Below are positions 13,755 through 63,863 of a DNA stretch of 64,000 nt, piece after piece. Location of the stretch: contig CALULJ010000008.1 of assembly GCA_944321445.1 (NCBI GenBank), positions 1-64,000 of the forward strand. Direction: 5' to 3'. A program made the translations under genes and the position numbers. How positions within the stretch are numbered: the stretch's first letter is position 1; every line of letters starts with the position of its first letter. This DNA comes from an uncultured Collinsella sp. (lineage in GTDB: Bacteria > Actinomycetota > Coriobacteriia > Coriobacteriales > Coriobacteriaceae). A model generated the notes under the pieces. That model was not told the origin of the DNA. It did not search any database and worked only from the letters and a program-made list of their open reading frames with translations.

Positions 13755-13829
13755 GAAGCTCTCCTACCGTGCAAACAATCGCGATTCAATCCCACTTACT
13801 GTACCCAAATTCACCAAATAGACGCGTGC

Positions 13830-13893
13830 GGGAAAATAGGGACAGGCACCTTTTTCCCACCGGTGGGAAAAAGGTGCCTGTCCCTATTTTCCC
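13830..13893. repeat. Family A 64-bp perfect palindrome
   Basis: 32-base arms, perfectly complementary (GGGAAAATAGGGACAGGCAC...), centre CCCACC/GGTGGG. Ends 4 bases before the methyltransferase stop codon. Confidence 0.95.
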
Positions 13894-13897
13894 AGCG

Positions 13898-28400: not shown

Positions 28401-31400
28401 TTAGTGGCTGTTGCGACGGCGCAGGTACAGGCCGGTCGCGATGAGCGCCGCGGCCGCCAGGCCGGTGCCACCGATAGCCGCGACGGCGAAGTCGCCGGTC
28501 TGCGGGATGCTCTCAGAGGGCTCTTCGGGCTTGGTAGGCTCCTCGGGCTCCTCAGGTTTCGTGGGCTCCTCAGGCTCGGGCTCGGGCGTCGGCTCGGGCT
28601 CCTCGCTGGGCTCGTACTCGTTCTCGAAGACCATGGGCGCGTCAGCGTTCTCCCAGGTCACCACAAGCTTGTTGCCCTGCTTGGTCACGTGCGCCGTAAT
28701 GGTGAACGTGGCCTCGTCGTAGGTGACGCCGTCGCTCTGGACGCCCTCGGTGTCGGGGTCGTCGTCGGCGGGCAGCACCTCGGTCACGGTGAACGTGTAG
28801 TCGCCGGCCTTGTCGAACACGAAGCCCTTTCCGCCGAACGTCACGTTGCCGGACGCATCGTTGGTGCCGGTCAGGCTCTTCGGCGAGACGTGTGAGGCGT
28901 TGTCGCCCGTGGCGGTGATGACGAAGGAGAACTCGCCGTCGACCAGGTCACGGCCGGTCAGCTTCTTGTCCACGTCGGTGTCCGGCTTGGACGGGTCGGA
29001 GGGATCGGGATCGACAGGCGTCGGCGGGGTGTACGGCTCGTCGTAGACGTTCTCGACGGTCGGGTTGTTGAACTCAACCGTAGCCTCGAGCTTACCGTCG
29101 TGATCCTCGTCGGTCACGTGCACGACGATGGTCTTGGGCGCGTTGTCGTACGCCCAGTTCGGGTCGTCGGTCGTCGTGATCTCGGTCACGGTGAAGTGGT
29201 AGTCGCCGACCGCGTTGAAGGTGAGGTCGCCGAAGTTCAAGGTCTCCTCGCCCTGCTTGCCGGTGAGGCCGGAGGTGGCCTTCACGATGCCGTCTGCCGT
29301 GATGCCCTCGATGTCCTCGAGCTTACCGGTGCTGTTCTCAGCGTCAAATGCGAGCACGAACTCGAACTCGGACGGAGCGTTGCCGCCGGTGACCCTCTTG
29401 GTCACCTGGAGGTCGGCCTCGTCGTCGCCCACGATCACGCCTGCAGGCGTGTAGGTGTTCTCGATGGTCGTGGTTTCCGGGTCAATGCTGTCAACAACAA
29501 GCTTGCCGTCCTGGTCCTCGACCGTGACCGTGATGGTCTTAGCCGCGTTGTCATAGGTCCAGCCACCTGCTGTGGTGGTCGTGAGCTCGGTCACCGTGAA
29601 GGTGTACTCGCCCGCAGCAGTGAAGGTCAGCCCGTCGAAGGACACGGTCTCGGAGCCCTCCCTGCCCGTCAGGCCCTTGGTCGAGGTCTCGATGCCCCCA
29701 GCCGGGAAAGCAGTCGCGGACTCGCCGGATCCAACGAACACATTGGCCGCATTATCGGACGTCAGCTTGAGCTCGAACTCGAACTCAGACAGCGCCGGAG
29801 CACCGGAAACCTTCTTGATTACCGAAATGACGGCATCATTCGGATCGCTCGCGTCGGGGTTGTAGACGTTCTCAACAGTCGGGTTGTTGGTGTCGATGCC
29901 GTCAACGACGGTGGTCGCATCGAGCTGGCCGTCAAAGCCATCGTCGGTCACTGTGACCGTGATGGTCTTGGCCGCGTTGTCATACGTCCATCCGTGCGCG
30001 CCCTCAGGCTTCGTCGTGGTCTCCACCACCGTGAACTTGTAGACACCGACCTTCTTGAAGATGAGGTCGCCGAAGCTCACGGTCTCCTCGCCCTGGGTAC
30101 CCTCGAGGCCAGCGGTCGCCTTCACGATGCCATCGCCGGTGATGCCATCGATATCCTCGAGCTTACCCGTGTTGCCCTCGGCGTCAGCGTCGAACGCGAG
30201 CGTGAACTCGAAATCGGACAGGGCGTTGCCGCCGATGACCTTCTTGGTCACCTTGAGGGCACCCTCGCCACCAACGGTCACGCTTGCAGGCACGTAGGTG
30301 TTCTGGATGGTCGGGTTGTTGCCCTCAATCGCATTCTCGGCGATTTCAAGCTTGCCGTCGCCATCGGTGTCGGTCACCGTAACCGTAATGGTCTTCGGCT
30401 GGTTGTCGTACTTCCAGTAGTCATGGTCGGATGTCGTGGTCTCCTTCACCTCGAAGGTGTACGTTCCCGCCTTGGTGAACGTCATGGAGCCGAAGCTTAC
30501 CGTCTCGGAACCCTTATTTTTCTCGAGGCCCTTGGTGCTTGCAGTAACACCGCCATCCGGGAAGGAAACGTCCTCACCTTCATCGTTCTTTACCTTGATG
30601 TCATCCTTGTTGCCAGACTTCAGAGTGAGCGCAAAGTCAAACTCGGACAGCGCCGGAGCACCCACAACCTCCTTGGTCACCTGGATCTGGGCCTGGTCAT
30701 CGCCGCCAATCTCAGTGCCCTCGGGGATGTACGTGTTAGTGACTGTGAACAGCAGAGCATTCTCGGGATTCGTCGTGACGGTGATGTTGCCGGCACCATC
30801 GTCCTTCACGGTCACCGTGATGGTCTTTGTGCTGGTGTCGTACGTCACGCCTTCCATCTTCTCATTTTCGGCAGGCCCGTTCTCGGTCACCTCATAGGTG
30901 AACGTCTTCTCGCGCTTCTCACCGGAAGCGGCAAGCGTGTTCGGTAAAGGCGTGACGCCCCAGGTGTTCTCGAGCGTGTAGTCGATGGTGCCGAAGTCAA
31001 CCTTACCGTCGGCGTCATTCTTGACCGTCTTCGAGCCGTCGACAGCGCCCTCGGGCATCGGAGCGTTCGGGTTGCTCTCGCTCGGCTTCAGTGTAAAGCT
31101 GAACTCGCCGCCCTTCAGGTCGGGAGCGTCAACGCCCTCCATGCCGGACTTGAGCACCTTCTCGCCCACGATGTTGAGCTTAGAGCCCTCGGCGCTATGC
31201 TCGGTCTCATCGTACTTGTTCTTGAACTGCAGCGGAGCATTCGCCTCGCCGTAGTTGACAGACGTGTCCATCGTGCCGTTGCCGTTGTCCTTGACGGTCA
31301 CAGTTACCTTGTAGGACGTAGCACCAACAGTCGTAACGCTTTCCGGCAGGTTGTCGATCTTCTCGGACACGGTGTAGGCAATGGTGTAGGTCGCGAGGTC

Positions 31401-34400
31401 GGTGCCCTCGTCGGCCGTCTTGGTCACGCCGGACTCCTTGTCCTTCGCGAGCTCGTCGAGCTCGTTGCTGTTGTAGGAGATCTCGTCGAAGGAGATGGCA
31501 GCAGCCTTGCCCTCGTCGGCGCCAGCGTTCTTGCCCTCAGCGACCACGTTACCCTTGGCGTCCTTCACCTCGAACGTGAACTCGCCCTGGAGCAGCTCGC
31601 GACCGGACAGGGTCTTCTTGGCCTCGATGGAGGCCTTGCCCTCGGCGTTGAGGCCGCCCGTGCCCTTGTACTCATTGGTGAACGCGGCAACGGCGGTTTC
31701 GTTCGCATCGGCCTCGGTCACGGCGTCGGTGTTCTTCACCGTCACCTCTGCCTCGAGCTTGCCGTCGGCATCGGTGTCGGTCACCTCGACAGTCACCGTG
31801 GCGGTATGCCCGTCGTAGGTCAGGCCGTCCTTGCCCCCGTTCGTCTCGGTGATGGTGTACTCGTAGGTTCCGACCTCGTCATACGTGATGTCGCCGAACG
31901 TCGCGACCTTGGGGGCGCTCACGTCGGTGATGGTCACCTTGGCGCCGTCGCGCTCGGGAATCGGGGCCGTGGCACCCTCGATGACGTTGCCCTCGTGATC
32001 CTTAACGGCACCAGCAGTGAGCACGAACTCGAAGCTGTCGCCGTCGATCCAGTTGCGGCCGCTCAGCGTCTTCTGGACGCTGATGGAGGCGTCGCCGCCC
32101 TCGCCGACGGTCACCTTCTCCGGAGTGTACTTGTTCACGAAGGAGAACAGCGGGGCATCCGCAGTCACGGCAGGATTGGTTTCCACCGTGACCTTGCCCT
32201 TGCCGTCGTCGTGCACGTGCACGATGAACGTCTTAGCGGAGTCCTCGGTAACGCCGGCCACCTTCGACTCTTCCTCGGTCACCGTGTACTTGAAGTACGC
32301 GTCGCGCTCCACGCCGCCAACGGCAAACGTCGTCACTTGGCGTCCCCACACGTTTTCAACCGTGAAGTCGATGGTGCCGAAATCAACGTTACCCTCGGCA
32401 TCATTCGAGACCGTCTTCGAGCCATCAGTGTCGGTACCCTCGGGCATGGGAGCGGGTTTTCCGCCCTCAACCGGATTACCGTCCTTATCGACCTGCTCGC
32501 CCGTCAGCGTGAAGGAGAACATGTTGTCCCTCAACTCGGGGGCGTCGACGCCGGCCATGGTGGACTCGATGGACTTCGTGCCCTCAACAGCGATCTCGGT
32601 GTCGGAACCCTCCTTCTCCTCATAGATATTCTTGAAGCCGAGCGATGAGGTGCCGGTGGGATAGTTCACCTTGACGGACAGCTTGCCGTCACCGTCGTCA
32701 GCAACAACAACGGTGATATCGAACGATGTCGCGCCATCGGGCGTCACGCCGGCATCGCTCAGTCCGGTCTTATCCTCTTCCACCTTGTAAGAAATGGTGT
32801 ACGAGGCCAAATCCGTCTTGTCGTCAACCGACTTGGTCACACCCGTCTTCTCGGGGTCCTTTGACTTCAGCTCGAGATCCTTGATCTCATATTTAATGGC
32901 GCTGAACGTGATGGCTGCAGCATCGCCGTCCTCGGCGGGAGCATTGGTTCCCGTAGAAACCGTCTGACCGGCCTTATCCGTGACCTTGAAGGTGAATTCC
33001 TCCTTCTCCATGTTACGGCCGGTCAGGGTCTTGTTGGCAGCGATGCTCACCTCGCCGTTTCCGCCAAGCTCACCAGTAGAGGTATAGGTGTTGGTGAAGT
33101 CGACGCGGCCCGTACCCTCGTACGGTTCACCATCGCGTGTGATGGTAGCGGTGCGGTTCAGGACATGCTCACCGTCCTGCACAACGTCCTCGATCACGAC
33201 GGTCACGACGTAGGTCGAGCTGTCCTTGGTAACACCCGCCACCGTGCTGTTGCGCTCGGTGATGGTGTACACATAGGTGCCCTCGTGCGTGTAGGTGGGA
33301 ACGCCCGTGCCAAACGCATAGCTGTTGCCCGTCGCGCTCTGCGAGGGGTTGATGGTGATGTTGTACCTCAGCCCACCGTTAGTCTCGGTGAGATCAGCAA
33401 CGTTACCTGCCAGGTTGTTGAAGTTGAACTCCGGCAGATCGTCCTTGGCAATCCCATCAGCCTTCATCGACACGTCGAAGGTGAAGGTGTCGCCCTGTTG
33501 CCAATTGCGGCCGCTCAGCGTCTTGAAGATCTGGATGCCGCCCGTAATCGTGCCGGCGTCGTACTTGTTGACGAAGTCGAGGCTACCCAGAGTCGCGGGG
33601 ACATTCTCGGTATCGCCCGAGTTCACCAGAACGGCCTCGCCCTCGGCGGTGATCTCACCGGTCGCCAGATCCTCGGTCACCGTGATGGTAACCGTGTACG
33701 TGCGGCCAGGATTCACTGCGCTCACGCCGGCGGGCATATCGGTTTCGTTCTCGTACACGTTGTACTGGAACGCCTTGCTGATCTTGCCGTCGTTGTCGTC
33801 GTCGGTCACGCCGGCCAGATCATCATGGTCGAAGGTGATGCTGCCGAAGCTGTAGTCGGCGGTATACGCATGCGCGTCGGTGTTCGTATTCTTAACCGAC
33901 ACGACCTTGTAGCCGTTAGTGTCAGTCTCAACCGTCAGGTTGTCGGGCATCGGATTGGCTTCAGCCTGCGCACGCATGACGAACGTGAACTGATCGTCGG
34001 CCATCTGGAACGAACCAACGTTGTCCTCGACCGTCTTGTGGCCGCTCAGCATCTCGTCGGCTTCGAGACCGAAGGTGTAGGGCTTGCCCTCGAAGGTGTT
34101 GACGAACTCGACGGAGGCATCGTCCGTGCCCGGAGTCACCTTGGCCTGCAGCGTGCCGGAACCGTTATCGGTCACCTCAACGGTGATGGTACCGACGTGG
34201 CGGTCGTAAGTCATACCGTTAGTGCCGTCCTCGGGCAGTTCTTCGCCGTTGTGCTGCGTCTCGGTCACATTGAAGGTGTACGTGCCGGGCTCAGAGAACA
34301 GGTAGGTGCCGGCGAACCAGAAGGTGCCGTTCTTGTCGTTCTGCTCGTTAGCCGTGGCGGTAGCGCTCTCAAAGGCAACCGGCTCGGTACCCTCGGCCGC

Positions 34401-37400
34401 GTTGACGGGGAGATACGTCACGTTATCCCACGAAGCACCTTCAGACACGGCGCCCTTGGTCAGCTCGAAACCGAAGGTCTCGTTGTCGAGCCAGCCACGC
34501 CCGTTGATCATCTTGGTGCCTGCGAAGGTGGCCTCGCCACCCTCAACGGTAGCCGTACCGGCCTTGTAGGTGTTCTCGAATTGGGCAGGACCGCTAACGG
34601 TGGCGTGGAGGCTGCCGTCGTAGTTGCCATCAGCATCAGTCTCGGACACGGTCACCGTGATGGTTTGAGTGCTGTTATCGTAGGTCCAGCCGGCGGGATC
34701 GGTGGTCTCGTCCTGAGCCTCGTCCTCAGTCACGTTGAACGTATAGGTGCCGGGCTCGGTGAACGTAATCTCACCAAACTGAGCGCTGTGCGTGGCGCCG
34801 TCGGCAAAGCTCTCGGTCACCGCGGTCTTATCGGCAGCGCCCTCTTCGTACTCGACGGTGCTCCAATCGACACCCTCCTCCTCAACAGGAGCGAAGGTGA
34901 AGTGGAAGTCGGCATCGGTGGACCAACCCTTGACCGTCTTCTCGACCGTCAGAGCCTCGGCAGCGTCGCCGCCGATGGTGACGGTGCCGTGGTCGTACTT
35001 ATTCTCAATCGTCGGGTTGTTGCCCGTCACATCGCCGATGTAGAGATTGCCGTCATACTGAGGTGCATCCCCGCCGGGCTCGTAGTCGGGATTAATGTCC
35101 GTAACCTCGACAGTGATCGTCCTAGGCGTCGTATCGAACGCCCAACCGTCGTCAGCGGCAGGCTGATTCTCCTGCACCGTGAAGGTGTAGGTACCCGGCT
35201 CAGTAAAGGTCAGCGTGTCGAAGCTCAAGGTCTGGGTGTTACCAGCCGCGATAGTTCCGCTGGTGGTCTCCGTGGTCTGATGATTCTCATCAAGACCCTT
35301 GATGTTCGCCACGGGTCCCTCAGTAGTATCCTGCGCGGTCAGCGTGAAGGTGTAGTCCGCAGCGGACGGGGCACCGGTAACCCTCTTGGTCACCTGCAGC
35401 GCATTGTCGGTGTCCTCGCCCATGTCGACGGAATTCGGGTTGTAGTCGTTCACGAAGCCGAAGGTCGGAACCACGTAGCCATCAGCATCGGAATTGGCGT
35501 GATTAACAACGACCTTACCGCCGTCCGCAATCTCGTTTCCATCCTTATCCAGGGTCTGAGTAACCGTGGTCACGGCATGCATGGTGCCGTCACCGTTGTC
35601 CACAACCTCGATCTCGACCTTATACTGAGACTTGTCGTAGCTAACGCCCGCGAGTCCCTCGCCCTCGACGGGCTCGGTCTCGTCCACGATGAACGTATAG
35701 GTCTTGCCAGCGTCCGTCTCATCAAAGGTCAGGCTCTGGAACTTGGCCATGGTGATGGTCTGATCGGCCGCCGCTCCCGTGTTCTGGAAGCTCTCGTCAG
35801 CGTTAGTGGTCAGATCCGCCGCATCGCCCTCGCCGGTAATGGTGAAGGTGAATTCGCCAGCGGTCATCGGGCGGTCGAGGAGCTGCTTGGTGACGTTGAT
35901 GCCACCCTTGCCCTCAGCACCGTACTTCAGCTCTGCCTCGTAGACGTTGGTAAACACGGCCTTGCCGGTCTCGTCGCTACCATTGTTCTCGTAAACAATG
36001 GGACCGTCGAGCACCAGCGCGCCGTTGCCGCCGTCCTTGACCTTGATGGTCACCTTGGCGACATTCTGGCTGTAGGTCATACCGTTGCCATTAGCGGTCT
36101 CGGTTCCTTGATCGTCAGCAACCTCGTTCACGGTAAAGGTGTACGTACCGGCCTTAGAGAAGGTGAGCGCGCTAAACGCGAAGTCCATACCGCTGGCCTT
36201 GGTGACAGTCTTCACCTCGGGATCAGCAAGCACTGTCTCCGGGCCGCCCGTCTGCTCCAGCTGGAAGTAGAACGTCTCGTTTTCGCCTATCTCGCGACCC
36301 TGCATCACCTTGGTGCCATGAATGGCCTCGTTGCCCTTCAGCGTATAGTCCGTCGGATCATAGACGTTGATGAACTTCACATCGGCAGGCTGCATGCTGG
36401 GCGTGGCCACGAGGTGCATGCCCTCACCCTGCTCGTTGGGCTCATCGGTTATCTCAACGGTGACGGTGTACACCGTGCCGTCATAGGTCATGCCGTTCAC
36501 CGACCAGGTGCCATTTTCGTTCTGGGTTGCATCCTCGGGGATAACCTCACGGATCTCGTAGATATAGGTGTTGTTCAGATGCGTTCCGTTATACCTGATG
36601 GTCTGGAACGCGAAACCATCAGGGTTCGTGCCATTGTTGCCAATGGTGATGGTGTGCGTATCCGCATCCGCGCCCTCGGGCATCGGGACGTCAGCCGCCT
36701 CAATAGTCGGGTTCTGCGCGGAGCCACCGTTGGTTGCGTAGCCGCCGATCGCCTTCAGCTCAAACGTGAACTTGTTGGCTGCGTTCGGATTGGCACCGGA
36801 GTTGTCCGTGTAATACTTGGTACCGTTGAGGTTGGTCGTGGCCTCCGTAGCATCGTAGTTGTTGGTGAACACGACCGTATTGTCGGTAATCTGCGGCTGC
36901 TCAGCAGGCGTGTTGCCGTCCACGTCAGTGCGCTGCGTGAACTGGACGGACTGAATCTCGAGCTTGCCCGTGCCGTTATCCACAACAGTAATGGTCACCG
37001 CATAGGTCTCGTTGGAGTAATCGATACCCGCGATCGGGTCGGTATCGTTGTCCTCCTCGATGACATAGGTGAACGTGCCCGGGTTCTCAAACTTGATGTT
37101 GCTCAGGTTGACGGTGTAGTCAGCAGCAGCATCCTCGTCGTCGACCACGACAGCGTCAGTGGACTCAGGCGCAGGGGCACCGCCCTCGGGAAGCATGGTG
37201 AACCTAAACTCGTCAGTATCCTGCCACTCGCGTCCGGTCAGATTCTTCTTCACCTTGACCAGCTGGTTGGCGCCTTCCAGCGTCACCTCAGTTGCGTGAT
37301 AGGTGTTGGTGAACATCGCAGTCTGCTGGCTGCCGCCCACAATGGTACCCTCGACAATACCGTCGTCGGTCTTGGCATTCTCGCCTGTCGAATTGTCCGT

Positions 37401-40145
37401 CGTGGCAAAACCGTTCTGGTTCGCAGTCTGCTCGGTCACGGTGTACTGAGCGCCATTGGGCAGGTCGGAAATCACGACATACTGACCGCCCTCAAGGGTA
37501 ATCTCACCGTTGTCAGAGACGGTACCCTCGCTCACAGGCGTCTCGCCCGTTGCGTATACGGCGTAGTCGTATTGGTTGGTGAGGTTGGTCTCAGCGCCGC
37601 CCTCGCCCACGGTGTACAGATGTACCGTGAACTTGAAGGTGTTCTTGTCCGCCTGTGTCTCGCTGGAGGCATTGCCCCAGTCGACATTCTTGTCGATGCG
37701 CAGATCGCCAGGAGCGTCAACGGAAAGCTTGCCGTTGTTACCCAGCTTCTGAGACACACTGTTGCCAACCCACGTCGGGGTCAGGACCGTAGAAGCGGTA
37801 CCTGTGAGATTCTCGCCCTTGTTGGACACGAGAGTTCCCGGACGATCCGCACGAGGCGTATCCGCCGCGATGTAAACGTTGCCGTTCCGGTAGGTAACAT
37901 TCCAGTCGTTACCACTACGGGTAATGGAACCGTTAGCGGGAACCTCTACAGCTCCGTTGTCATTTCCTGTCAGCTGCCAATAGCTGTCCTGATAATAGAG
38001 AGTATTGTACCGCGCGATATTGTTGGGCGTAGCCGGCTGCGTGCAATCCTCGTCGATGAAGAGCTGTGTATTGACGGGGTAGTAGTAGAACTTGTTTCCG
38101 TCGCTCGGCGTGAAGGAGGCCTCGGTCGTGCCCTGGGCGGCTTCCTGTACGAAGCTGTTGGAGTAGAAATCAACGGTCGTTCCGTCAGCAGAGGTCTGCG
38201 CCAGAACCGCATCATGATTTGCATCCTGCGGATTATTCAGAGCATCGATGACCCCATCCTTAACGCTGACGCCATAGAACAGACGAACCGGGAAGGTGTC
38301 ACTCACGGTCATCGTGCCATTGTCGGTGTCAACGTCATAGTTACGCATCGGGATGAGCGACGCGGGAATCTGCACGGTAATGATGTCACCCGTCGCAAGG
38401 TCGTTGCTCTTGGTGACCGTTACTTTGATTTCCGAAAGATCTGCACCCTCGGGGTAGGCGGTGTTCACGCCATTGCCCTCGTTGACAACGCCGGAGAACG
38501 TCCAAGTATTGCCACGGTCACTGGTCGTGCCCTCATGGAGTCCGTCAGCGAACGCAAGATACATCTTGTTGTTGTCCGCACCCACACCCGTGACTTCCAT
38601 GAAGGAACCAAGGGTGTCGGTAAAGGTCAGGTAGCCAGGGGTACCCGCGGCGCCCTCCACCTCTTCAATCGGAGAACCGGAGCCTTGATTGATGGGGAGA
38701 GACTCGGTGATGTCCTCAAACACCTGGTTGAGCTCATCGGCGTTGGAGGCAGCAAAGTAGTACTGCGGGGTCTCCTCCCCTTCGGCCCCTTCAACACGGT
38801 CGCCAAGAACGAGGTCACCGTAGTCGTCGGTCTGTCGCCACTCATACTGCGGATTCCAGAATGATCCAACGTTTACATTATCCGCGCACTCGGCATCAGG
38901 ATAATTACTCGAGACCGCGTTCATATAGCGATTGAAGTCATTGTTCGTGTCAGAGGGGTTGGCTCCTTGGAACACGCCGATGCTGTAAACAAGCGCACCG
39001 TCCTGCTTCATATCGTATGCATAGTTGATAGCCGTACCGGCAACGCTATCGCTCCAGCTTGAAGAGGTGGTGGGGTTGCCATCAGTGAAGAAGATGACGA
39101 TCTTCTGTGCGTTTGTGCGCGCGCCCGTGAGATTGCCGTCACCGTCGAGAACACGCTGCGCCTGATGCATGCCGTAGTCAGCACGTGTTGCGCCTTCACC
39201 CTCCAGGGAGTTGATTGTGTTTTTGAGGGTTGATGCATTCTGCGTCGTGTACGCAGTCAAATCCGAAACGACTTGAGAAAAGTTGTACCCGTCCCAATTG
39301 GTACCGTTGCCAATCGAGTTGTTCTCGTCGCTTGCAAACTTAACAAGTGAGATGCGGTGCTGCTGAGCAGTATCGGTAATGCCGTCATTCATGGCAGCAA
39401 CAGAATCCACAAAGGCATTGGCGGCATTCTGGAGTGCCTCCATGCGGCTCATCTGCTGGTTAGAGCGCGTGTAGAACTGGACGCGACCGTCAGCAGTATC
39501 GCCTTCCCAACGCATAGGAGTAACGTACGTGCGGTTGTAGCTCGGTCCGTAATACCAACCTTGGTTGTTGTGCTCAAGCTCAGTCCATTGACCATTGACC
39601 TGGATGTAATAATTATTCCGGTTGTTAGTGTTATAGGTGGGGCTGTAGGAATAGCCCATGTCGTGACCGCTGTTGTTGTCCATCGAACCAGAAGTATCCA
39701 CCACGAGAACAATATCGAGCGGGGTGGTGTTGGTAACAACAGATTTCAGGTTGGAGGTAGAGGAGATGGCAGACAGGCTCACCAAGAAGTCGGAATCGGA
39801 ACCCTTTACGACGCTCGTGTCATCAAGCGCGCCCTCGAAGTTATAGTCATCATTAAAGACACTTTTATCAGTCCAAATGCGACCTATGTTCTCCGTGCTC
39901 TTAGAGTTCGCCGCCAGCGTCTCCCATGCGTTCGTCGTGTCGGGATCCACCACGGTGTCAGCGCCGTCGACAGCATAAAGTTCAATCTCGCTGTCAGCAC
40001 TAAACAGCGAGATCCCAAACAGCTGTTGCGTTATTCCATTAACACCATTGGAAATTGCGTTCCCCAAATCCTCCAGGGGATTCGCATACGCTCCGGGAAC
40101 CGCCACGGAGCATGCGATCGCGATTGCCATCATCACGGCAATCAC
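28401..40145 (-). CDS. Giant LPXTG-type surface adhesin: vWA domain plus about 20 pilin-type isopeptide repeats
   Basis: About 3,914 residues. After a hydrophobic signal stretch (VMMAIAIACSVAVPGAYA) comes a von Willebrand A domain with its metal site DIVLVVDTSGSM at about 145-155, a linker domain, a first CnaB-like module, then by my count 19 modules of the Spy0128/FctA pilin type. Each has a Lys strand (VTKTLSGR-like), a Glu strand (TFTVTE or YTITE) and an Asn end (FENTY or FVNKY), the residues that form internal isopeptide bonds. The tail is Pro/Glu-rich, then IPQTG, a membrane helix and RRRNSH, a sortase sorting signal. Predicted role: cell-wall-anchored stalk with adhesive tip. No sortase or pilin neighbours are here. 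The start shown (GTG) lacks a ribosome-binding site and the signal-peptide n-region; the likely true start is ATG 40233, out of frame because of a G tract. Confidence 0.92.
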   Translation of the reverse strand: MIAVMMAIAIACSVAVPGAYANPLEDLGNAISNGVNGITQQLFGISLFSADSEIELYAVDGADTVVDPDTTNAWETLAANSKSTENIGRIWTDKSVFNDDYNFEGALDDTSVVKGSDSDFLVSLSAISSTSNLKSVVTNTTPLDIVLVVDTSGSMDNNSGHDMGYSYSPTYNTNNRNNYYIQVNGQWTELEHNNQGWYYGPSYNRTYVTPMRWEGDTADGRVQFYTRSNQQMSRMEALQNAANAFVDSVAAMNDGITDTAQQHRISLVKFASDENNSIGNGTNWDGYNFSQVVSDLTAYTTQNASTLKNTINSLEGEGATRADYGMHQAQRVLDGDGNLTGARTNAQKIVIFFTDGNPTTSSSWSDSVAGTAINYAYDMKQDGALVYSIGVFQGANPSDTNNDFNRYMNAVSSNYPDAECADNVNVGSFWNPQYEWRQTDDYGDLVLGDRVEGAEGEETPQYYFAASNADELNQVFEDITESLPINQGSGSPIEEVEGAAGTPGYLTFTDTLGSFMEVTGVGADNNKMYLAFADGLHEGTTSDRGNTWTFSGVVNEGNGVNTAYPEGADLSEIKVTVTKSNDLATGDIITVQIPASLIPMRNYDVDTDNGTMTVSDTFPVRLFYGVSVKDGVIDALNNPQDANHDAVLAQTSADGTTVDFYSNSFVQEAAQGTTEASFTPSDGNKFYYYPVNTQLFIDEDCTQPATPNNIARYNTLYYQDSYWQLTGNDNGAVEVPANGSITRSGNDWNVTYRNGNVYIAADTPRADRPGTLVSNKGENLTGTASTVLTPTWVGNSVSQKLGNNGKLSVDAPGDLRIDKNVDWGNASSETQADKNTFKFTVHLYTVGEGGAETNLTNQYDYAVYATGETPVSEGTVSDNGEITLEGGQYVVISDLPNGAQYTVTEQTANQNGFATTDNSTGENAKTDDGIVEGTIVGGSQQTAMFTNTYHATEVTLEGANQLVKVKKNLTGREWQDTDEFRFTMLPEGGAPAPESTDAVVVDDEDAAADYTVNLSNIKFENPGTFTYVIEEDNDTDPIAGIDYSNETYAVTITVVDNGTGKLEIQSVQFTQRTDVDGNTPAEQPQITDNTVVFTNNYDATEATTNLNGTKYYTDNSGANPNAANKFTFELKAIGGYATNGGSAQNPTIEAADVPMPEGADADTHTITIGNNGTNPDGFAFQTIRYNGTHLNNTYIYEIREVIPEDATQNENGTWSVNGMTYDGTVYTVTVEITDEPNEQGEGMHLVATPSMQPADVKFINVYDPTDYTLKGNEAIHGTKVMQGREIGENETFYFQLEQTGGPETVLADPEVKTVTKASGMDFAFSALTFSKAGTYTFTVNEVADDQGTETANGNGMTYSQNVAKVTIKVKDGGNGALVLDGPIVYENNGSDETGKAVFTNVYEAELKYGAEGKGGINVTKQLLDRPMTAGEFTFTITGEGDAADLTTNADESFQNTGAAADQTITMAKFQSLTFDETDAGKTYTFIVDETEPVEGEGLAGVSYDKSQYKVEIEVVDNGDGTMHAVTTVTQTLDKDGNEIADGGKVVVNHANSDADGYVVPTFGFVNDYNPNSVDMGEDTDNALQVTKRVTGAPSAADYTFTLTAQDTTEGPVANIKGLDENHQTTETTSGTIAAGNTQTLSFDTLTFTEPGTYTFTVQENQPAADDGWAFDTTPRTITVEVTDINPDYEPGGDAPQYDGNLYIGDVTGNNPTIENKYDHGTVTIGGDAAEALTVEKTVKGWSTDADFHFTFAPVEEEGVDWSTVEYEEGAADKTAVTESFADGATHSAQFGEITFTEPGTYTFNVTEDEAQDETTDPAGWTYDNSTQTITVTVSETDADGNYDGSLHATVSGPAQFENTYKAGTATVEGGEATFAGTKMINGRGWLDNETFGFELTKGAVSEGASWDNVTYLPVNAAEGTEPVAFESATATANEQNDKNGTFWFAGTYLFSEPGTYTFNVTETQHNGEELPEDGTNGMTYDRHVGTITVEVTDNGSGTLQAKVTPGTDDASVEFVNTFEGKPYTFGLEADEMLSGHKTVEDNVGSFQMADDQFTFVMRAQAEANPMPDNLTVETDTNGYKVVSVKNTNTDAHAYTADYSFGSITFDHDDLAGVTDDDNDGKISKAFQYNVYENETDMPAGVSAVNPGRTYTVTITVTEDLATGEITAEGEAVLVNSGDTENVPATLGSLDFVNKYDAGTITGGIQIFKTLSGRNWQQGDTFTFDVSMKADGIAKDDLPEFNFNNLAGNVADLTETNGGLRYNITINPSQSATGNSYAFGTGVPTYTHEGTYVYTITERNSTVAGVTKDSSTYVVTVVIEDVVQDGEHVLNRTATITRDGEPYEGTGRVDFTNTYTSTGELGGNGEVSIAANKTLTGRNMEKEEFTFKVTDKAGQTVSTGTNAPAEDGDAAAITFSAIKYEIKDLELKSKDPEKTGVTKSVDDKTDLASYTISYKVEEDKTGLSDAGVTPDGATSFDITVVVADDGDGKLSVKVNYPTGTSSLGFKNIYEEKEGSDTEIAVEGTKSIESTMAGVDAPELRDNMFSFTLTGEQVDKDGNPVEGGKPAPMPEGTDTDGSKTVSNDAEGNVDFGTIDFTVENVWGRQVTTFAVGGVERDAYFKYTVTEEESKVAGVTEDSAKTFIVHVHDDGKGKVTVETNPAVTADAPLFSFVNKYTPEKVTVGEGGDASISVQKTLSGRNWIDGDSFEFVLTAGAVKDHEGNVIEGATAPIPERDGAKVTITDVSAPKVATFGDITYDEVGTYEYTITETNGGKDGLTYDGHTATVTVEVTDTDADGKLEAEVTVKNTDAVTEADANETAVAAFTNEYKGTGGLNAEGKASIEAKKTLSGRELLQGEFTFEVKDAKGNVVAEGKNAGADEGKAAAISFDEISYNSNELDELAKDKESGVTKTADEGTDLATYTIAYTVSEKIDNLPESVTTVGATSYKVTVTVKDNGNGTMDTSVNYGEANAPLQFKNKYDETEHSAEGSKLNIVGEKVLKSGMEGVDAPDLKGGEFSFTLKPSESNPNAPMPEGAVDGSKTVKNDADGKVDFGTIDYTLENTWGVTPLPNTLAASGEKREKTFTYEVTENGPAENEKMEGVTYDTSTKTITVTVKDDGAGNITVTTNPENALLFTVTNTYIPEGTEIGGDDQAQIQVTKEVVGAPALSEFDFALTLKSGNKDDIKVKNDEGEDVSFPDGGVTASTKGLEKNKGSETVSFGSMTFTKAGTYTFEVKETTTSDHDYWKYDNQPKTITVTVTDTDGDGKLEIAENAIEGNNPTIQNTYVPASVTVGGEGALKVTKKVIGGNALSDFEFTLAFDADAEGNTGKLEDIDGITGDGIVKATAGLEGTQGEETVSFGDLIFKKVGVYKFTVVETTTKPEGAHGWTYDNAAKTITVTVTDDGFDGQLDATTVVDGIDTNNPTVENVYNPDASDPNDAVISVIKKVSGAPALSEFEFELKLTSDNAANVFVGSGESATAFPAGGIETSTKGLTGREGSETVSFDGLTFTAAGEYTFTVTELTTTTAGGWTYDNAAKTITVTVEDQDGKLVVDSIDPETTTIENTYTPAGVIVGDDEADLQVTKRVTGGNAPSEFEFVLAFDAENSTGKLEDIEGITADGIVKATSGLTGKQGEETLNFGDLTFNAVGDYHFTVTEITTTDDPNWAYDNAPKTIVVHVTDEDHDGKLEATVEFNNPTVENVYDEPYTPPTPVDPDPSDPSKPDTDVDKKLTGRDLVDGEFSFVITATGDNASHVSPKSLTGTNDASGNVTFGGKGFVFDKAGDYTFTVTEVLPADDDPDTEGVQSDGVTYDEATFTITAHVTKQGNKLVVTWENADAPMVFENEYEPSEEPEPTPEPEPEEPTKPEEPEEPTKPEEPSESIPQTGDFAVAAIGGTGLAAAALIATGLYLRRRNSH

Positions 40146-42375: not shown

Positions 42376-44070
42376 TTAGCTCAGCAGCTCGCGACCAGCA
42401 GCCTCAATCGCATCAATCTGCGCGTCGGCAGCGGCAGCGTCCGCGCCCTTCGCAAAGATGTACAGCTTGATCTTCGGCTCGGTACCGGACGGGCGCACAA
42501 TCGCCTTGTCGCCACCCTCGAGGTCGAACTCGATGACGTTTGCCTTGGGCAGGCCGTTCACGCCGGTCTCGTAGTCCACGACGCCCTCGACCTTGGCGCC
42601 CGCGATCTCGGTCGGCGCGGTCTCGCGCAGGCCAGCCATAATGCCAGCCATCTTGGCGGCACCGTCGGCACCCGGGTAGCTCAGCGAAATCGTCTTGTTG
42701 TGGTAGTAGCCGTACTTCTCGTACAGCGCGCGCATGGCCTGAACCAGGTTGATGCCCTGCAGCTTGTAGTACTGCGCCATCTGGCAAATGAGCATCGACG
42801 CGTTGACGGCGTCCTTGTCGCGCACGTGGTCGCCGGACAGGTAGCCGTAGCTCTCCTCAAAGCCGAAGATGAAGCGGTCGACCTCGCCCGCATCGGAAAG
42901 ACCGGTGATGATGTCGCCGATGTACTTGAAGCCGGTCAGGCAACGGCGCAGCTCAAAGCCGTACTCCTCGGCCAGCGCGTCCACCATGGCGGAGGACACG
43001 ATCGTGGTAACGGCAACCTTGCGGGACAGATCCTCGCCGCGGGCGGCGCGCATCTTGCAGATGTAGTCGAGCAGCAGGACGCCCATCTCGTTGCCGGTCA
43101 GCAGCGTGTAATCGTCGCCATCGGCGCACGCCACGCCCACGCGGTCGGCGTCGGGGTCGGTGGCCAGCAGCAGGTCGGGCTTGACCTCCTGGCACAGGTC
43201 GATGCCCTTCTGCATGGCCTCGCGAATCTCCGGGTTGGGATACGGGCAGGTGGGGAAGTTGCCGTCCGGATCCTTCTGCTCGGGCACGATGGTGATATCG
43301 GTGATACCCACCTTGTTGAGCACGGTGGTAACCGGAATCAGGCCGGTGCCGTTCAGCGGGGTGTACACGAGCTTCAGCGGCGCGGCCTCAACCTGCTCGG
43401 GCGTCAGCGCGCTCACAGACTTGTCCACGACCGCGTCATAGTACGCGTCAAGGACCGAGTCATCGATCCATTTGACCAGACCCTGCTCCACAGCCTCGTC
43501 GAAGTCCATGGTCTTCACGTCGGTGAAGGGGTTGGTAGCCTCCATAGCTGCGGAAATAGCAGCCGCAGCCTCGCTGGTGATCTGGCAGCCGTCGGGGCCG
43601 TAGGCCTTGTAGCCGTTGTACGGAGCCGGGTTGTGTGACGCAGTCATGCAGATGCCGCCGGAGCACTGCAGGTAGCGCGTGGCCCAGGACAGCGTCGGCA
43701 CGGGGGAGATCTTGGGGTACACGTACGCGGTCACGCCGTTGGCGGCAAGAATCGCGGCGGTGGTCTTCACGAACAGCTCGCCCTTGTTGCGGCTGTCGCG
43801 CGCGATAGCGACGGTGGGGTTCTCGAACGTTGCGTTCAGATAGTTGGCGAAGCCCTGCGTGGCGCGGCCAACGGTATAGATGTTCATACGGTTGGTGCCG
43901 GCGCCAATGGTCCCACGAAGGCCAGCCGTGCCAAAGGCCAGATCCTGGAAGAACGCGTCGGTGATAGCGTTTTCGTCACCGGAGTCCTTCATCTGCTTAA
44001 GCTCGGCCAGAAGCTCCTCGTCCTTGACGTTGGCAATCCACGTGTCAAGCAGCTCATGCACGTCTACCAT
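42376..44070 (-). CDS. Phospho-sugar mutase (phosphoglucomutase/phosphomannomutase, PgcA-like)
   Basis: Interconverts hexose 1- and 6-phosphates. 564 residues, the length of PgcA-type alpha-phosphoglucomutases. Family motifs: FGTAGLRGTIGAGTNRMN near 45, the phosphoserine loop MTASHNPAPYNGYK near 145, the metal-binding loop LLLATDPDADRVG near 300, sugar-binding GFEESYGYLSGDHVRDKDA near 400, and the phosphate-binding RPSGTEPKIKLY near 535. Probably feeds UDP-glucose or glycogen and cell-surface sugar synthesis. AAAGG is 8 bases before the ATG at 44070. Stands alone with its own terminator. Confidence 0.94.
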   Translation of the reverse strand: MVDVHELLDTWIANVKDEELLAELKQMKDSGDENAITDAFFQDLAFGTAGLRGTIGAGTNRMNIYTVGRATQGFANYLNATFENPTVAIARDSRNKGELFVKTTAAILAANGVTAYVYPKISPVPTLSWATRYLQCSGGICMTASHNPAPYNGYKAYGPDGCQITSEAAAAISAAMEATNPFTDVKTMDFDEAVEQGLVKWIDDSVLDAYYDAVVDKSVSALTPEQVEAAPLKLVYTPLNGTGLIPVTTVLNKVGITDITIVPEQKDPDGNFPTCPYPNPEIREAMQKGIDLCQEVKPDLLLATDPDADRVGVACADGDDYTLLTGNEMGVLLLDYICKMRAARGEDLSRKVAVTTIVSSAMVDALAEEYGFELRRCLTGFKYIGDIITGLSDAGEVDRFIFGFEESYGYLSGDHVRDKDAVNASMLICQMAQYYKLQGINLVQAMRALYEKYGYYHNKTISLSYPGADGAAKMAGIMAGLRETAPTEIAGAKVEGVVDYETGVNGLPKANVIEFDLEGGDKAIVRPSGTEPKIKLYIFAKGADAAAADAQIDAIEAAGRELLS

Positions 44071-44239
44071 AGCTTTTACCTTTCCCTTGCCGGATAAACA
44101 CTCGATTGTGCCCCGTATGCCCACGGGGTTGGATCCGTTAATACACGCACCCACTCGGATGATACGTCATCTAGGTAAAGTTTATGACAGTGCGCCGCTC
44201 GACGGACGATTTGTCCGGTAGGCGTTCCTCGCACAATAG
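44071..44239. other. Leader of the mutase gene
   Basis: A short hairpin CCCCGT-ATGCCC-ACGGGG lies at 44110-44126; otherwise nothing recognised. Confidence 0.4.
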
Positions 44240-45440
44240 GAGATACAGGCCTCATTTCGACCCGCGACCCAATCGCCCACCAGACCGGACTGCCCCTCCT
44301 GACTCTTGCTCCAAACCGGACGAAACGGTCAGTGAACCGATCTGCATTCGTTGATGAGCAGCATTGGCGCGATTTGAAGCAGTTTTCTTGTGCTCAAAAG
44401 ATTCGATTCATGAATTGATTCCATAACGCATCATACAACCGATTCACTGTCTGCATCGCATTGGTTCAGTCATATTCAATTGATTTACAACTGATTCTTC
44501 GTATCAACTCGCACTCAGTCGTTGGCGAAGAGACAACGAGATAAGATTCGGAGCATACTTTCGGTATCAAACCGACCCGCAGAACGCTTCATAACGAGAA
44601 TCCTGACGCACTCTTCTATATCCGTACCAAACGTCACCGCGCTAGGCAGAGTGGGGGAGAGGCGTTCATGCGAAACGATTCCATGACCCATTCCGTCTGA
44701 ACACATACCGTTTCGAAGACACATATCACCGCTCTTATATCTGATTCCATACGACACAACTATCGCTCTAAGAGTGCATCCCCTAACCAAACCAGATTTG
44801 CCCGGACCTATTGAGTACTCGAACTACAGGTCCACTTCAACAGTGTGCTTCACCAGATGTTTTTAAACTCGGAGCTCGTTGGACGCAGACCATTCAACTA
44901 AACCAACCACCGACTCAAACGCACCATCGGGTCACTCAGACTCATTCAAAGATTCAAGCGCATACGCTCAATCTATCCCAACCGCTTCGCGCTAACTCCG
45001 CCCATCTCAACTGATTCGAACGATCCCATCGAGTCGATGCGATCCTAAGTAGTTCCAATTCACATGCGTGTGCGTAGGCCGCTCGTACTCGATCAATCAC
45101 CGAATCACTGAATCGGATTGCAGAATGAGTCTCATCGATCCGTCAATCGATTCCACTTCTCGTGCCACACATCTTCAACCGAATCGTGGGTTCGCACACG
45201 ACTCATTCGCTATTAATCCGCCAACCACGTCAGAACCGATTCACACGCAGCAGGAGAGACCACATCAACCTGAACCTTGTCGATTCACTCCATAATCGAA
45301 CCAACCAAAGAATCGACTCTGTCGTTTACACCAAGAATTCAAACCAGGTTCGATTCATGCGAATCGAACCCTCTACCAGTGCAAAGACTGAATCCAACCG
45401 CGTCACACCGACCCACGCACGTCAATTAACCGCACCATAA
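44240..45440. other. Gene-free, GANTC-rich stretch of about 1.2 kb
   Basis: No convincing reading frame on either strand and clearly lower GC than the flanks. The five-base words GATTC, GAATC, GACTC and GAGTC recur about 28 times by hand count (about 4-5 expected at random), mostly as C/T/A-GATTC-A/C/G, e.g. 44400-44420, 45098-45152 and 45345-45366, where GGTTCGATTC and GAATCGAACC mirror each other. The copies are dispersed and irregularly spaced, not a clean tandem array. It ends at the promoter of the HTH gene at 45523. Confidence 0.6.
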
Positions 45441-45454
45441 GCTCAATATCACGA

Positions 45455-45460
45455 TATAAT
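45455..45460 (+). promoter_or_regulatory. Probable -10 element of the HTH/coiled-coil gene
   Basis: Consensus TATAAT 63 bases before the start codon, at the edge of the GANTC-rich stretch; no clear -35 box at 17 bases. Confidence 0.45.
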
Positions 45461-45522
45461 CGCAGGCAGATTAACCAATGCACTGATGCAGTCAGAAACG
45501 TAGCAGGGTAGGGTGAAACGTT

Positions 45523-46011
45523 TTGCCAACCATCAAAGAGATCGCCGACGCAACCGGACGCGGAAAATCGACCGTAAGCAGGGCCGTCAAGGAGCTTGGC
45601 CTGCGCGAATCCGGTCACGCCAAAGCTGATGGAGCCCGCGGCGCCCTTATCATCGATGCCGAGGGCGCATCGATGCTCGCTGACTACCTCACCAAGAATG
45701 TCGAGTCAAAACCGCAGGTAGACGACGATGAAACCCCTGCTCAGCCCGCTATTGACCTCGATGCCCTGGTCGGCGTGTACAAGGAGCGCATCGAAGACCT
45801 CAAAACCCAAATCGACGGCCTCAATGCCCAACTCGCCGCCAAAGACGAGCAAATCAAGGAGCTTTCCATGGCGCTCGACAACGCTCAGAACGCTGCAAAG
45901 GATGCTCAGGAAGAAACTCGCCGCTCGCACGACCGCGTCCTCCTCATGGCGAGCGCCGGCGTATGGGAGCGCCTCACCGGTTTCAAGGGCCTTTTGGAGT
46001 CCGGCGAGTAA
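45523..46011 (+). CDS. Helix-turn-helix protein with coiled coil (plasmid replication/partition-like)
   Basis: 162 residues. N-terminal HTH (TIKEIADATGRGKSTVSRAV, KELGL), a short linker, then a heptad-rich coiled coil from about 85 to 145 (IEDLKTQIDGLNAQLAAKDE, QIKELSMALDNAQ). The layout resembles DUF536/KfrA-type proteins of plasmids, which bind DNA at one end and oligomerise through the coil; the exact family is not certain. TTG at 45523 is the only possible start, since TGA lies three codons upstream in frame. It directly follows the GANTC-rich stretch, so it may bind there (inference). Confidence 0.75.
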   Translation: MPTIKEIADATGRGKSTVSRAVKELGLRESGHAKADGARGALIIDAEGASMLADYLTKNVESKPQVDDDETPAQPAIDLDALVGVYKERIEDLKTQIDGLNAQLAAKDEQIKELSMALDNAQNAAKDAQEETRRSHDRVLLMASAGVWERLTGFKGLLESGE

Positions 46012-46326: not shown

Positions 46327-46402
46327 TGGTGGAGGTTAGGGGGATCGAACCCCTGACCTCAGGCTTGCAAAGCCCGCGCTCTCCCAGCTGAGCTAAACCC
46401 CC
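46327..46402 (-). tRNA. tRNA-Ala (TGC)
   Basis: 76 nt with encoded CCA. Acceptor starts GGGGGTT; D arm GCTCAGCTGGGAGAGC; anticodon stem-loop CGGGC-TTTGCAA-GCCTG gives anticodon TGC; T arm AGGGG-TTCGATC-CCCCT. Lies 63 bases from tRNA-Ile, with a hairpin between them. Confidence 0.97.
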
Positions 46403-46409
46403 ACTTAGT

Positions 46410-46454
46410 AATAAACACCCCAGCGGCGACTCGGCTCTCGCTGGGGTGTTTATT
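46410..46454. terminator. Bidirectional terminator between the two tRNAs
   Basis: AATAAACACCCCAGCG and CGCTGGGGTGTTTATT, 16 perfect pairs, with A- and T-rich outer ends. Confidence 0.8.
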
Positions 46455-46465
46455 GCGAAAGAAAG

Positions 46466-46542
46466 TGGTGGACCTGACAAGATTCGAACTTGTGACCTCC
46501 CGGTTATCAGCCGGACGCTCTAACCAACTGAGCTACAGGTCC
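46466..46542 (-). tRNA. tRNA-Ile (GAT)
   Basis: 77 nt with encoded CCA. Acceptor GGACCTG/CAGGTCC, D arm GCTCAGTTGGTTAGAGC, anticodon stem-loop with CTGATAA (anticodon GAT), T arm ACAAG-TTCGAAT-CTTGT. Outside any rRNA operon, unlike many bacteria where Ile and Ala tRNAs lie in the 16S-23S spacer. Confidence 0.97.
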
Positions 46543-57053: not shown

Positions 57054-58724
57054 CTACGATTTGATGAGGATGATGTTCTTGAGCTGCTGCACCTCCTCGT
57101 TAAAGCGCGCGTCCTCTTTCATCTTGGTCTCGACCACTTCCAAGCTGTGAATCACCGTGGTGTGGTCGCGCCCGAACGCGGATCCAACAGCCTTGAGTGA
57201 CATCTCACACAGCGTGTTGGTGAGATAGACCGCCACGTGGCGCGGGAACGCGATGTTTTTAGAGCGCTTGCGGCCGATCATGTCCTCGTGGCTCACGTGG
57301 TAGAACTCCTCGACCACGCTCTGCACGGTGTCGACGCGGATGACCTTGTGTGCGGTATCGAAGTACTCGTCGGCGATGGCGTCGATGTCGGCCGCCGTGA
57401 GCTCGCCGCCCGCCTGCTCGCGTTCGTAGGAAAGGCCCGCGCAACGTTCACAGAAGCTTTCGAGCTCGCGGATGTTGTTGCCCGAGATCTCCGCCATGTG
57501 GCGCAGCTGGTCGTCAGAGAGATGTCCCTCTTCGAGGCCAATTCCGTCGAGCAGCGATGCACCCGCACCCGGAATCGCGACGTTTTGCGACCCGCGAATC
57601 GTGTGCTCGTAGTAGTTGCGCAAGATGGCGTACTTCATCTCGAAGCCGGGCTCCGATACGAGGCACAGCATGCCCGAGTTGAAGCGGCTCGTCAGGCGCT
57701 CGTCCATGCCCAGCTTCTTGGGCGCACGGTCGCTCGCGATGACGATCTTCTTGTTCTCGCGGATGAATTCGTCCACCAGCTGGAAGAAGAACTCGATGGA
57801 GGCCTGTCGGCCGATGATGTTTTGGATATCGTCGATGATGAGCACGTCCGCCGCGCGGTAGTCGCGCATGATGGGCTCGCCCGGTCCGCGCTGCGCGCCC
57901 AGGTCGCGCATGTAGTCGTCGATATAGGCCTGGCTGTTCGCGTATTTCACGCGGATATAGGGCTTTTCGGCGGCCAGGTAGTTCTTGATGGCGAACAGCA
58001 GGTGCGTTTTGCCCAAGCCCGAGTTGCCGTAGATGAACAGACTCGTGCACTGCCCCGGCTCGTCGGCGAACGCGGCGAAGCGCACGGCGCTTTGGTAGGC
58101 ATGTTTGTTCTCGTCGCCGAAGACGAAGTTTTCAAACGTGTACTTGGCGTTGATACCCACGGCGGGATAGCTCTGCTCGACAGGTTCCGGTTGGGGTTCT
58201 GTCGGTACGGCCACCGCGCTCGCCGACGGCTGCTCCTGGCGCTTCATGTTGGCCATCACGCGCTGGAACTGCTCGTTGGTCAAGGTGTTGTTCACGGTCA
58301 CGCGCCCGCTCCCGGCATCCGAGGCGATGGGGGCCTTGGCGAGCCGCCGCGCGCCATCGGTGTTCCAGGGCAGTCCGCCGCCCGCCGTGCGCGCGCCCGC
58401 GGGGGCGGCCCCGGCTGCCGGCTCAGGCTCAGCGCCCGAAACGGGCTCGGTGCGCGACACCGGCGCGCCGGCAGGCGCCTGCGGCACGGTGATGGTGAGC
58501 GCGAGGGGAGCGAAGGCGATTTCCTCCAGGTAGCGCTCGATAACCTCTCGCTGTTTCACCAGGTAGGAGTAGGCGAATCGGCTGGGCGCCTCGATGGTGA
58601 GCGCGTCATCGGTCAAGTCGCACGCCCGCGCGCTCGCGAGCATGTTGACCAGCCGCGCGTCTAGGCCGTCGCGCTGGCAGCATGCGATGGCGTCATCGAG
58701 AAGAATGCGTGCCTCGTTATCCAT
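57054..58724 (-). CDS. dnaA: Chromosomal replication initiator DnaA
   Basis: Binds DnaA boxes and melts the origin. 556 residues. Domain I is near 1-80, domain II is a long Ala/Pro/Glu-rich linker (about 85-195), domain III is the AAA+ module (KYTFENFVFGDENKHAYQSA, Walker A GNSGLGKTHLLFAI, Walker B VLIIDDIQNI, sensor IVIASDRAP) and domain IV is the DNA-binding helix-turn-helix SAFGRDHTTVIHS. In the family the Walker B is usually DDIQF; here DDIQN. GAGGTGAACC is before the ATG. It starts 8 bases after the upstream ATP-binding protein gene, so they are probably co-transcribed. Confidence 0.97.
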   Translation of the reverse strand: MDNEARILLDDAIACCQRDGLDARLVNMLASARACDLTDDALTIEAPSRFAYSYLVKQREVIERYLEEIAFAPLALTITVPQAPAGAPVSRTEPVSGAEPEPAAGAAPAGARTAGGGLPWNTDGARRLAKAPIASDAGSGRVTVNNTLTNEQFQRVMANMKRQEQPSASAVAVPTEPQPEPVEQSYPAVGINAKYTFENFVFGDENKHAYQSAVRFAAFADEPGQCTSLFIYGNSGLGKTHLLFAIKNYLAAEKPYIRVKYANSQAYIDDYMRDLGAQRGPGEPIMRDYRAADVLIIDDIQNIIGRQASIEFFFQLVDEFIRENKKIVIASDRAPKKLGMDERLTSRFNSGMLCLVSEPGFEMKYAILRNYYEHTIRGSQNVAIPGAGASLLDGIGLEEGHLSDDQLRHMAEISGNNIRELESFCERCAGLSYEREQAGGELTAADIDAIADEYFDTAHKVIRVDTVQSVVEEFYHVSHEDMIGRKRSKNIAFPRHVAVYLTNTLCEMSLKAVGSAFGRDHTTVIHSLEVVETKMKEDARFNEEVQQLKNIILIKS

Positions 58725-60112: not shown

Positions 60113-60233
60113 GGCGCACCGCATTCCGTCTTCGTTTGAGCTGCGAATCGCCGGTCGAGCGAGCCCGTCTGGACCCGCGCATCCGGCGCGTATCCAAGGA
60201 TACCAGCTCGCCCACCCGAAACCTTTCAACAAC

Positions 60234-60306
60234 TTTTCCAAACCTGTTGAAAAGTGAAGAAAAGTCCTGAAAAGTTATCAACAGTTTCCGCATCACCTGT
60301 GGAAAA
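60234..60306. other. DnaA-box cluster, probable oriC
   Basis: Four box-like 9-mers within 73 bases: TTTTCCAAA (60234), TGTTGAAAA (60245), TTATCAACA (60275) and TGTGGAAAA (60298), with near-identical AAAAGT spacers. It lies between the divergent dnaA-side genes and rpmH, where gene direction switches. Confidence 0.7.
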
Positions 60307-63788: not shown

Positions 63789-63804
63789 TGTTTCACGTGA
63801 AACA
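63789..63804. promoter_or_regulatory. parS: parS site 1
   Basis: Perfect 16-bp TGTTTCACGTGAAACA, the ParB-binding consensus known from Bacillus subtilis and most bacteria. 101 bases upstream of parA. Confidence 0.97.
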
Positions 63805-63847: not shown

Positions 63848-63863
63848 TGTTTCACGTGAAACA
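63848..63863. promoter_or_regulatory. parS: parS site 2
   Basis: Second perfect TGTTTCACGTGAAACA, 59 bases centre to centre from the first and 42 bases before the parA start. ParB bound here could also autoregulate parAB. Confidence 0.97.

Follow-up and report, generated by a model that had tools for sequence, protein, structure and literature searches.

The window analysed here, a stretch of 64,000 nt from an uncultured Collinsella sp., carries a noncoding tract of about 1.2 kb that is crowded with short GANTC words and lies beside a gene for a small helix-turn-helix (HTH)/coiled-coil protein. What is this tract for, and does it belong to the neighboring gene? On the evidence presented below, we think it probable that the tract is an origin-proximal docking array of the RacA/Par kind, to which the neighboring protein is predicted to bind, and which probably serves to tether or condense the origin region.

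The locus and its genomic setting

The host genome is a 2.36-Mb draft, 97% complete. The features of the window that are referred to in the text are the following.

42376..44067, minus strand: phosphoglucomutase/phosphomannomutase gene (pgm), bordering the tract on the side away from the HTH gene; context, outside the proposed system
44228..45447, no strand: word-saturated noncoding array, i.e., the interval between pgm and the HTH gene, trimmed by 160 bp at its start and 75 bp at its end; contains 28 GANTC and 16 AYYGAWYC words
44400..45394, no strand: span of the AYYGAWYC words
45448..45522, plus strand: promoter/leader of the HTH gene
45523..46011, plus strand: HTH gene, encoding a 162-aa protein modeled with a winged HTH (residues 1-58), a linker and a long coiled coil from residue 79 onward, and with the invariant tail LMASAGVWERLTGFKGLL
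57054..58724, minus strand: dnaA; context, oriC neighborhood
63789-63804 and 63848-63863: two perfect parS sites, the chromosome's canonical centromere; context

Downstream of the tract are found the HTH gene, tRNA-Ala, tRNA-Ile, a bifunctional-nuclease-domain (BFN) gene, and two genes that we take from their sequences to be gyrA and gyrB. Beyond gyrB, Pfam matches identify DciA, a RecF/SMC-type ATPase, DnaN and DnaA. The HTH gene and the tract are 11-13 kb from dnaA. A third parS site, with one mismatch, is at contig position 65904, and a ParB gene is at contig position 64782-65312; the chromosome's own ParB and parS are thus 18-20 kb from the tract. With dnaA, parS and ParB all close by, the region represents oriC with a canonical ParB-parS system.

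Other features of this neighborhood may be mentioned. The tRNA-Ala(TGC) and tRNA-Ile(GAT) genes (46327-46542) are paired outside any rRNA operon within the window, and the pair has an identical placement in all genomes that carry the HTH gene and in several that do not. The gene at 58733-60241 (minus strand), which adjoins dnaA, matches a histidine-kinase-type ATPase domain and, at its C terminus, a winged helix; it is an unusual oriC neighbor. The longest listed open frame of the window has 3914 aa (28401-40145, minus strand).

Density of the word

A sequence-only reading of the locus had described about 28 GANTC words between positions 44240 and 45440, mostly GATTC or GAATC, as a several-fold excess within a gene-free stretch of lower GC content. 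The counts bear this out. There are 28 GANTC words, 21 of them GAWTC and 7 GASTC, and the 21 GAWTC words of the pgm-HTH interval compare with 5.6 expected from dinucleotide shuffles, the highest of 500 shuffles reaching 14. The tract has 49% GC and is gene-free as far as seen: the only open reading frames of at least 80 aa are one of 91 aa and one of 92 aa, and an Rfam search of the tract gave no match.

As a control, roughly one third of the same genome (800 kb, in 40 stretches of 20 kb) was scanned. GANTC has a mean of 2.94 per 1.2 kb there, and no 1.2-kb window exceeds 16, compared with 28 in the tract; control windows below 53% GC average 5.75 and reach at most 11. The longer form of the word described below, AYYGAWYC, has a mean of 0.37 per 1.2 kb and a maximum of 4 in the same 800 kb, compared with 16 in the tract. 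In the whole window it is found 51 times, of which 16 are in 44181-45522. Those on the plus strand start at 44414, 44438, 44490, 45010, 45099, 45107, 45134, 45146, 45178, 45235, 45295, 45363 and 45387, and those on the minus strand are at 44400, 44463 and 45347.

The window as a whole is short of GANTC (182 words vs 280 expected), and given this scarcity outside the tract, avoidance of the word by the host genome is possible. The densest other GANTC stretch of the control (positions 13501-14900 of locus L164, contig G000:C13; 16 per 1.2 kb) is nearly devoid of the AYYGAWYC context. Triples of GAWTC with gaps of up to 30 bp are represented by 41 rows in the host genome, 8 of which are inside the tract. 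Triples within 20 bp were also tried as a probe for arrays in other genomes and were rejected, as seven genomes with the HTH gene gave 3-16 rows and five without it gave 4-12, i.e., no separation. The array is better detected by AYYGAWYC per 1.2 kb.

Form of the word

The corresponding tracts of the seven genomes that carry the gene were pooled, each trimmed by 160 bp on the pgm side and 75 bp on the gene side. GATTC/GAATC is found 93 times in the pool, with 30.9 expected, and GASTC is weakly enriched (29 vs 17.6). The flanking bases are decisive: YGAWTCR occurs 98 times vs 22.2 expected, whereas RGAWTCY shows no enrichment (6 vs 9.5; both patterns are palindromic, with both strands counted). 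By these counts GANTC is just the center of a longer word of approximately the form AYYGAWYC (A[CT][CT]GA[AT][CT]C), found 66 times vs 8.2 expected, and the word contexts that the sequence-only reading had seen as shared correspond to this unit. The flanks are near-palindromic, with Y before and R after the core, and would fit binding by a dimer. That reading was also right in seeing no fixed period: successive words are 5 to 364 bp apart, with no regular spacing or 10-11 bp phasing over the seven tracts.

It should be noted that the form AYYGAWYC was picked after the pooled tracts had been viewed, and a leave-one-out test was run for this reason. When each tract was held out in turn, the 20 7-mers with the strongest enrichment in the other six were enriched in it as well, in seven cases of seven; shuffles that matched the count numbered 0 of 300 for six tracts and 3 of 300 for the tract of genome G012. 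The latter fits AYYGAWYC less well (6 vs 2.1 expected), and 32 of 1000 shuffles reach 6. An EM motif search of the tracts was abandoned after it had drifted to general composition (about 720 "sites"). On the strand of the HTH gene, the seven tracts contain 27 GACTC words (11.5 expected) and 3 GAGTC words (7.8 expected), a strand asymmetry that a palindromic site does not explain.

Fold of the 162-aa protein

An AlphaFold2 model made with the seven carrier sequences (pLDDT 77, pTM 0.33) displays a winged HTH and a single long helix. The secondary structure of the former, H4-11 H15-25 E33-36 E41-44 H46-58, is that of a MerR-like winged HTH. In the single-chain model the long helix starts at residue 79, and the mean pLDDT is above 90 over residues 81-130. 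The HTH and the tail are nearly invariant across the seven carriers, and the tail stretch L141-L158 is the same in all of them. The last 11 residues have a hydrophobic moment of 0.44, with equal or higher values in other segments of the protein.

In a Foldseek search the top match is 8csh, the pSK1 Par protein on centromere DNA (probability 1.00, TMt 0.83), followed by 5i44, RacA with DNA; none of the E-values is below 0.001, the best being 0.019 over 58 columns. VIA-align also ranks 8csh highest (Z 8.7, 53 aa, rmsd 1.4), with RacA-DNA at Z 8.0; below them, IF2 fragments reach 7.5 and MerR proteins score 4-7. Because IF2 fragments come this close, the Z margin by itself is modest. A profile search against PDB sequences also gave Par as the best match (E 0.042, residues 1-134). 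The Pfam family DUF536 (PF04394) aligns weakly at residues 101-133 with 15.3 bits, under the cut-off of 20.7, and a homolog from genome G115 reaches 20.4 bits. The Pfam search detected no ParB domain in the protein and no Rep domain over the cut-off, and no parS was found in the tract.

As modeled, the protein is of the Par/RacA/RocS type. Thus the resemblance to partition proteins proposed from the sequence is reinforced, with Par and RacA as top folds, and the accompanying statement that the system matches no named class was too strong.

Co-occurrence of gene and array in Collinsella

The HTH gene is present in 7 of the 43 Collinsella genomes examined; its absence from the other 36 means that Collinsella does not require it. 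Named carriers are Collinsella tanakaei An791, ET30, ET10 and An368, C. ihumii GD8, and the metagenome-assembled Ca. C. stercoripullorum. The proteins of the other carriers are 76-92% identical in aa sequence to that of the window. The gene order is the same in all seven: pgm / tract / gene / tRNA-Ala, tRNA-Ile / BFN / gyrA / gyrB. The pgm-HTH intervals and their GANTC counts are as follows, G000 being the genome of the window.

G000: 1455 bp, 28 GANTC
G034: 1652 bp, 24 GANTC
G016: 1389 bp, 24 GANTC
G012: 1720 bp, 28 GANTC
G064: 1953 bp, 20 GANTC
G015: 377 bp, 7 GANTC
G021: 390 bp, 1 GANTC

Tract and gene, suspected at the outset to go together, are therefore found at the same place in seven of seven carriers; six of these have the word array, and G021 has a remnant of 390 bp. 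The G021 gene product is 87% identical to the window protein, yet the remnant has one GAWTC and two AYYGAWYC words; the large array is thus not always retained by genomes that keep the gene.

Among genomes without the gene, 8 BFN loci and 9 pgm loci show no array. A BFN gene was detected in 41 of the 43 genomes and its locus was obtained for 30, consisting of the 7 carriers and 23 non-carriers; none of the latter shows more than 3 GAWTC per 250 bp. One non-carrier, G005, has five AYYGAWYC words in 500 bp of locus L148, in apparent coding sequence.

Sequence turnover and retention of the word

The tracts of the different carriers show little sequence similarity. With blastn at word size 7, similarity is confined to the tract ends, and mid-tract identity is 52.6% for G000/G034 (51.4% when shuffled), 53.5% for G016/G064 (50.4%) and 54.6% for G000/G016 (48.8%). 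At four-fold sites of the HTH gene, a fraction of 0.29-0.49 is identical in seven pairs, compared with 0.64-0.80 for gyrB. These low values show that neutral sequence is near saturation. Judging from this comparison, the word density is kept by selection rather than by descent in all carriers except G021. The 76-92% aa identity at one locus, together with four-fold sites so close to saturation, points to long purifying selection on the protein.

Proposed mode of action and comparison with known systems

In the proposed mechanism, the MerR-like winged HTH, brought into pairs by the coiled coil, would read a near-palindromic word of about AYYGAWYCR. The many copies of the word over 1.2-1.7 kb upstream of the protein's own gene, near oriC, would gather many dimers. 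The conserved C-terminal tail and contacts between coiled coils may then bridge the bound DNA, and the bridged complex may link the origin region to the membrane or to another partner, with segregation or anchoring, beyond autoregulation, as the presumed outcome. The mode of action would be akin to that of pSK1 Par, RacA and RocS, and the array would give this chromosome, in addition to its canonical ParB-parS, a further centromere-like element close to the origin.

pSK1 Par, the single-protein partition system of a staphylococcal plasmid, has the MerR-like winged HTH and coiled coil seen in our model, likewise encoded by a single gene. The solved entry 8csh shows its DNA-binding domain on the centromere, whereas here the array is a candidate and its binding is predicted. 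The Collinsella gene differs in being chromosomal and next to oriC, in the degenerate, non-periodic words and in the DUF536 match below the cut-off.

RacA of Bacillus subtilis acts in sporulation through DivIVA. It shares the winged HTH and coiled coil of the model and is the second-best fold match. As with RacA, sites are dense near the origin, 11-13 kb from dnaA in this case, with none as dense in the 800 kb of control. However, the ram sites of RacA are described as being spread over the rest of the chromosome as well (available text of PMC6593407), whereas the Collinsella words form a single dense array adjoining the gene.

In layout the protein matches RocS of Streptococcus pneumoniae, which is also chromosomal and almost equal in length and domain order: 163 aa, with an HTH at 1-55, a coiled coil, DUF536 at 104-146 and an amphipathic helix (PMC11500499). 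The available text of that paper relates RocS to Par and RacA, reports that it drives pneumococcal chromosome segregation, and names no specific docking array; in Collinsella a candidate array is visible. The C-terminal amphipathic helix of RocS is MinD-like and binds the membrane. The tail described here, which is conserved and has an unexceptional hydrophobic moment, may do so as well.

ParABS has in common the proposed origin-proximal, centromere-like function. It differs in that the Collinsella protein lacks a ParB domain and the tract lacks parS, both of which are found elsewhere in the genome. What is new here is the putative Par/RacA/RocS-like single-protein handling of DNA with an origin-proximal array adjoining the gene, in Collinsella. 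A literature search found no publication on this gene-array system, subscription papers being mostly outside its reach.

Alternative explanations

The main rival is autoregulation, i.e., that the array is an operator for the protein's own gene, and perhaps for pgm, with no role in the chromosome. The array is directly upstream of the gene and of a TATAAT -10-like word (45455-45460). By eye, this word is also found in G034, G021, G016, G012 and G064, and in G016 a GAATC word abuts it. However, 16 sites over 1 kb are more than an operator needs, the final AYYGAWYC of the window tract begins at 45387, some 70 bp upstream of the -10-like word, and the fold matches and oriC-proximal position point to partition-type proteins. 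We therefore regard an operator without any chromosomal role as unlikely, though it should be noted that autoregulation is compatible with docking and the two can coexist.

It is more doubtful that the locus is the remnant of a plasmid or other mobile element, with a par-like gene and centromere that have lost their function. Lactobacillales plasmids encode DUF536/RepB-like proteins of about 30% identity, weak homologs lie on short contigs (G064:C42 and G262:C18), and the gene is in just 7 of 43 genomes. A plasmid ancestry of the gene is possible; loss of function of gene or array is unlikely, as the locus is the same in all carriers, the HTH and tail are nearly invariant in proteins 76-92% identical despite near-saturated four-fold sites, and the words are retained against neutral decay.

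There is little to recommend a noncoding RNA, or a decayed gene in which the word recurs by accident of composition. The second half of the tract folds better than its shuffles (z -3.26), as expected of dense near-palindromes, but the first half does not (z -0.28), Rfam gives no match, and the tracts cannot be aligned between species. Equally improbable is a datA- or iteron-like tract that titrates DnaA or binds an initiator and so controls replication. The 11-13 kb distance to dnaA would suit it, but no DnaA-box-like site (TTATCCACA, up to one mismatch) is found in the tract, and the word is unlike the DnaA box. Plasmid iterons in the strict sense were rejected, with no regular spacing and no Rep domain over the cut-off. 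An iteron-like or nucleoid-organizing array, as suggested by the sequence-only reading, is still the best description.

Its other suggestion, a GANTC methylation hub of the CcrM/HinfI type that times replication or transcription, had in its favor 28 GANTC words in 1.2 kb near oriC, but it fails and is barely credible because the enrichment requires Y before and R after GAWTC, with GASTC weak, and because no match to PF01555 (N6_N4_Mtase), the family to which CcrM belongs, was found in the genome with a search whose Caulobacter control was positive; moreover, L164 is GANTC-rich without the flanking context.

Homologs in the wider class

A class-wide search found homologs of the gene in 15 of 296 genomes, and dnaA was sought in 11 genomes with the gene. 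In 9 of these the gene is 10-36 kb from dnaA; the other two, G246 and G262, have it on short contigs without dnaA, where it cannot be placed. The distances, with those for G115 and G223 assuming a circular replicon, are as follows.

G000, 11 kb; G064, 10.4 kb; G016, 10.5 kb; G215, 23.0 kb; G281, 24.3 kb; G283, 30.4 kb (downstream of dnaA)
G223, 33.2 kb; G115, 35.7 kb; G038, 35.9 kb (upstream of dnaA)

As the gene is found on either side of dnaA, these positions suggest that origin proximity itself is favored in the family.

No AYYGAWYC array was seen at homologs outside the seven carriers. Upstream of the g5 homologs of G115, G038 and G223, the repeated word is another one, GTTACGC or GTTAC. 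In G115 (locus L135), four of the five GTTACGC words of 12 kb lie 80-294 bp upstream of the homolog. The single GTTACGC of G038 is likewise upstream, as is one of the three of G223; in these two genomes recurrence is limited to shorter forms. GTTACGC is thus no more than suggestive of a private array in another lineage. The regions upstream of g13-type homologs show no clear repeated word.

A broader reading may be considered tentatively, and we would place it somewhat below an even chance: some Coriobacteriia may carry a second, ParABS-independent origin centromere made of a single Par/RacA-like protein and its private array. Individual sites would be wholly replaced from one sister species to the next while the array as such persists, and related lineages would have exchanged both the word (for GTTACGC) and the recognition helix. 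If true, this would be a bacterial case of fast centromere evolution. The locus offers a directly testable protein-DNA pair, a RocS-type chromosomal protein beside a strong candidate array with ParB-parS intact. The seven species-level genomes with diverged arrays, and the related lineages with another word, are natural replicates with which it can be asked how a bacterial centromere-like array evolves.

Viral contigs were also searched for relatives; none were found, and a viral origin was rejected. Weak second homologs are found in two of the carriers, on a 622-kb contig of G016 (C3, with dnaA of that genome on C5) and on a 14-kb contig of G064. A shorter homolog (MPTIKELADACGASKP...) is found on short contigs at L083 7694-8137 (G064:C42) and from L142 6244 onward (G262:C18); being near-identical in two different families, it probably belongs to a mobile element.
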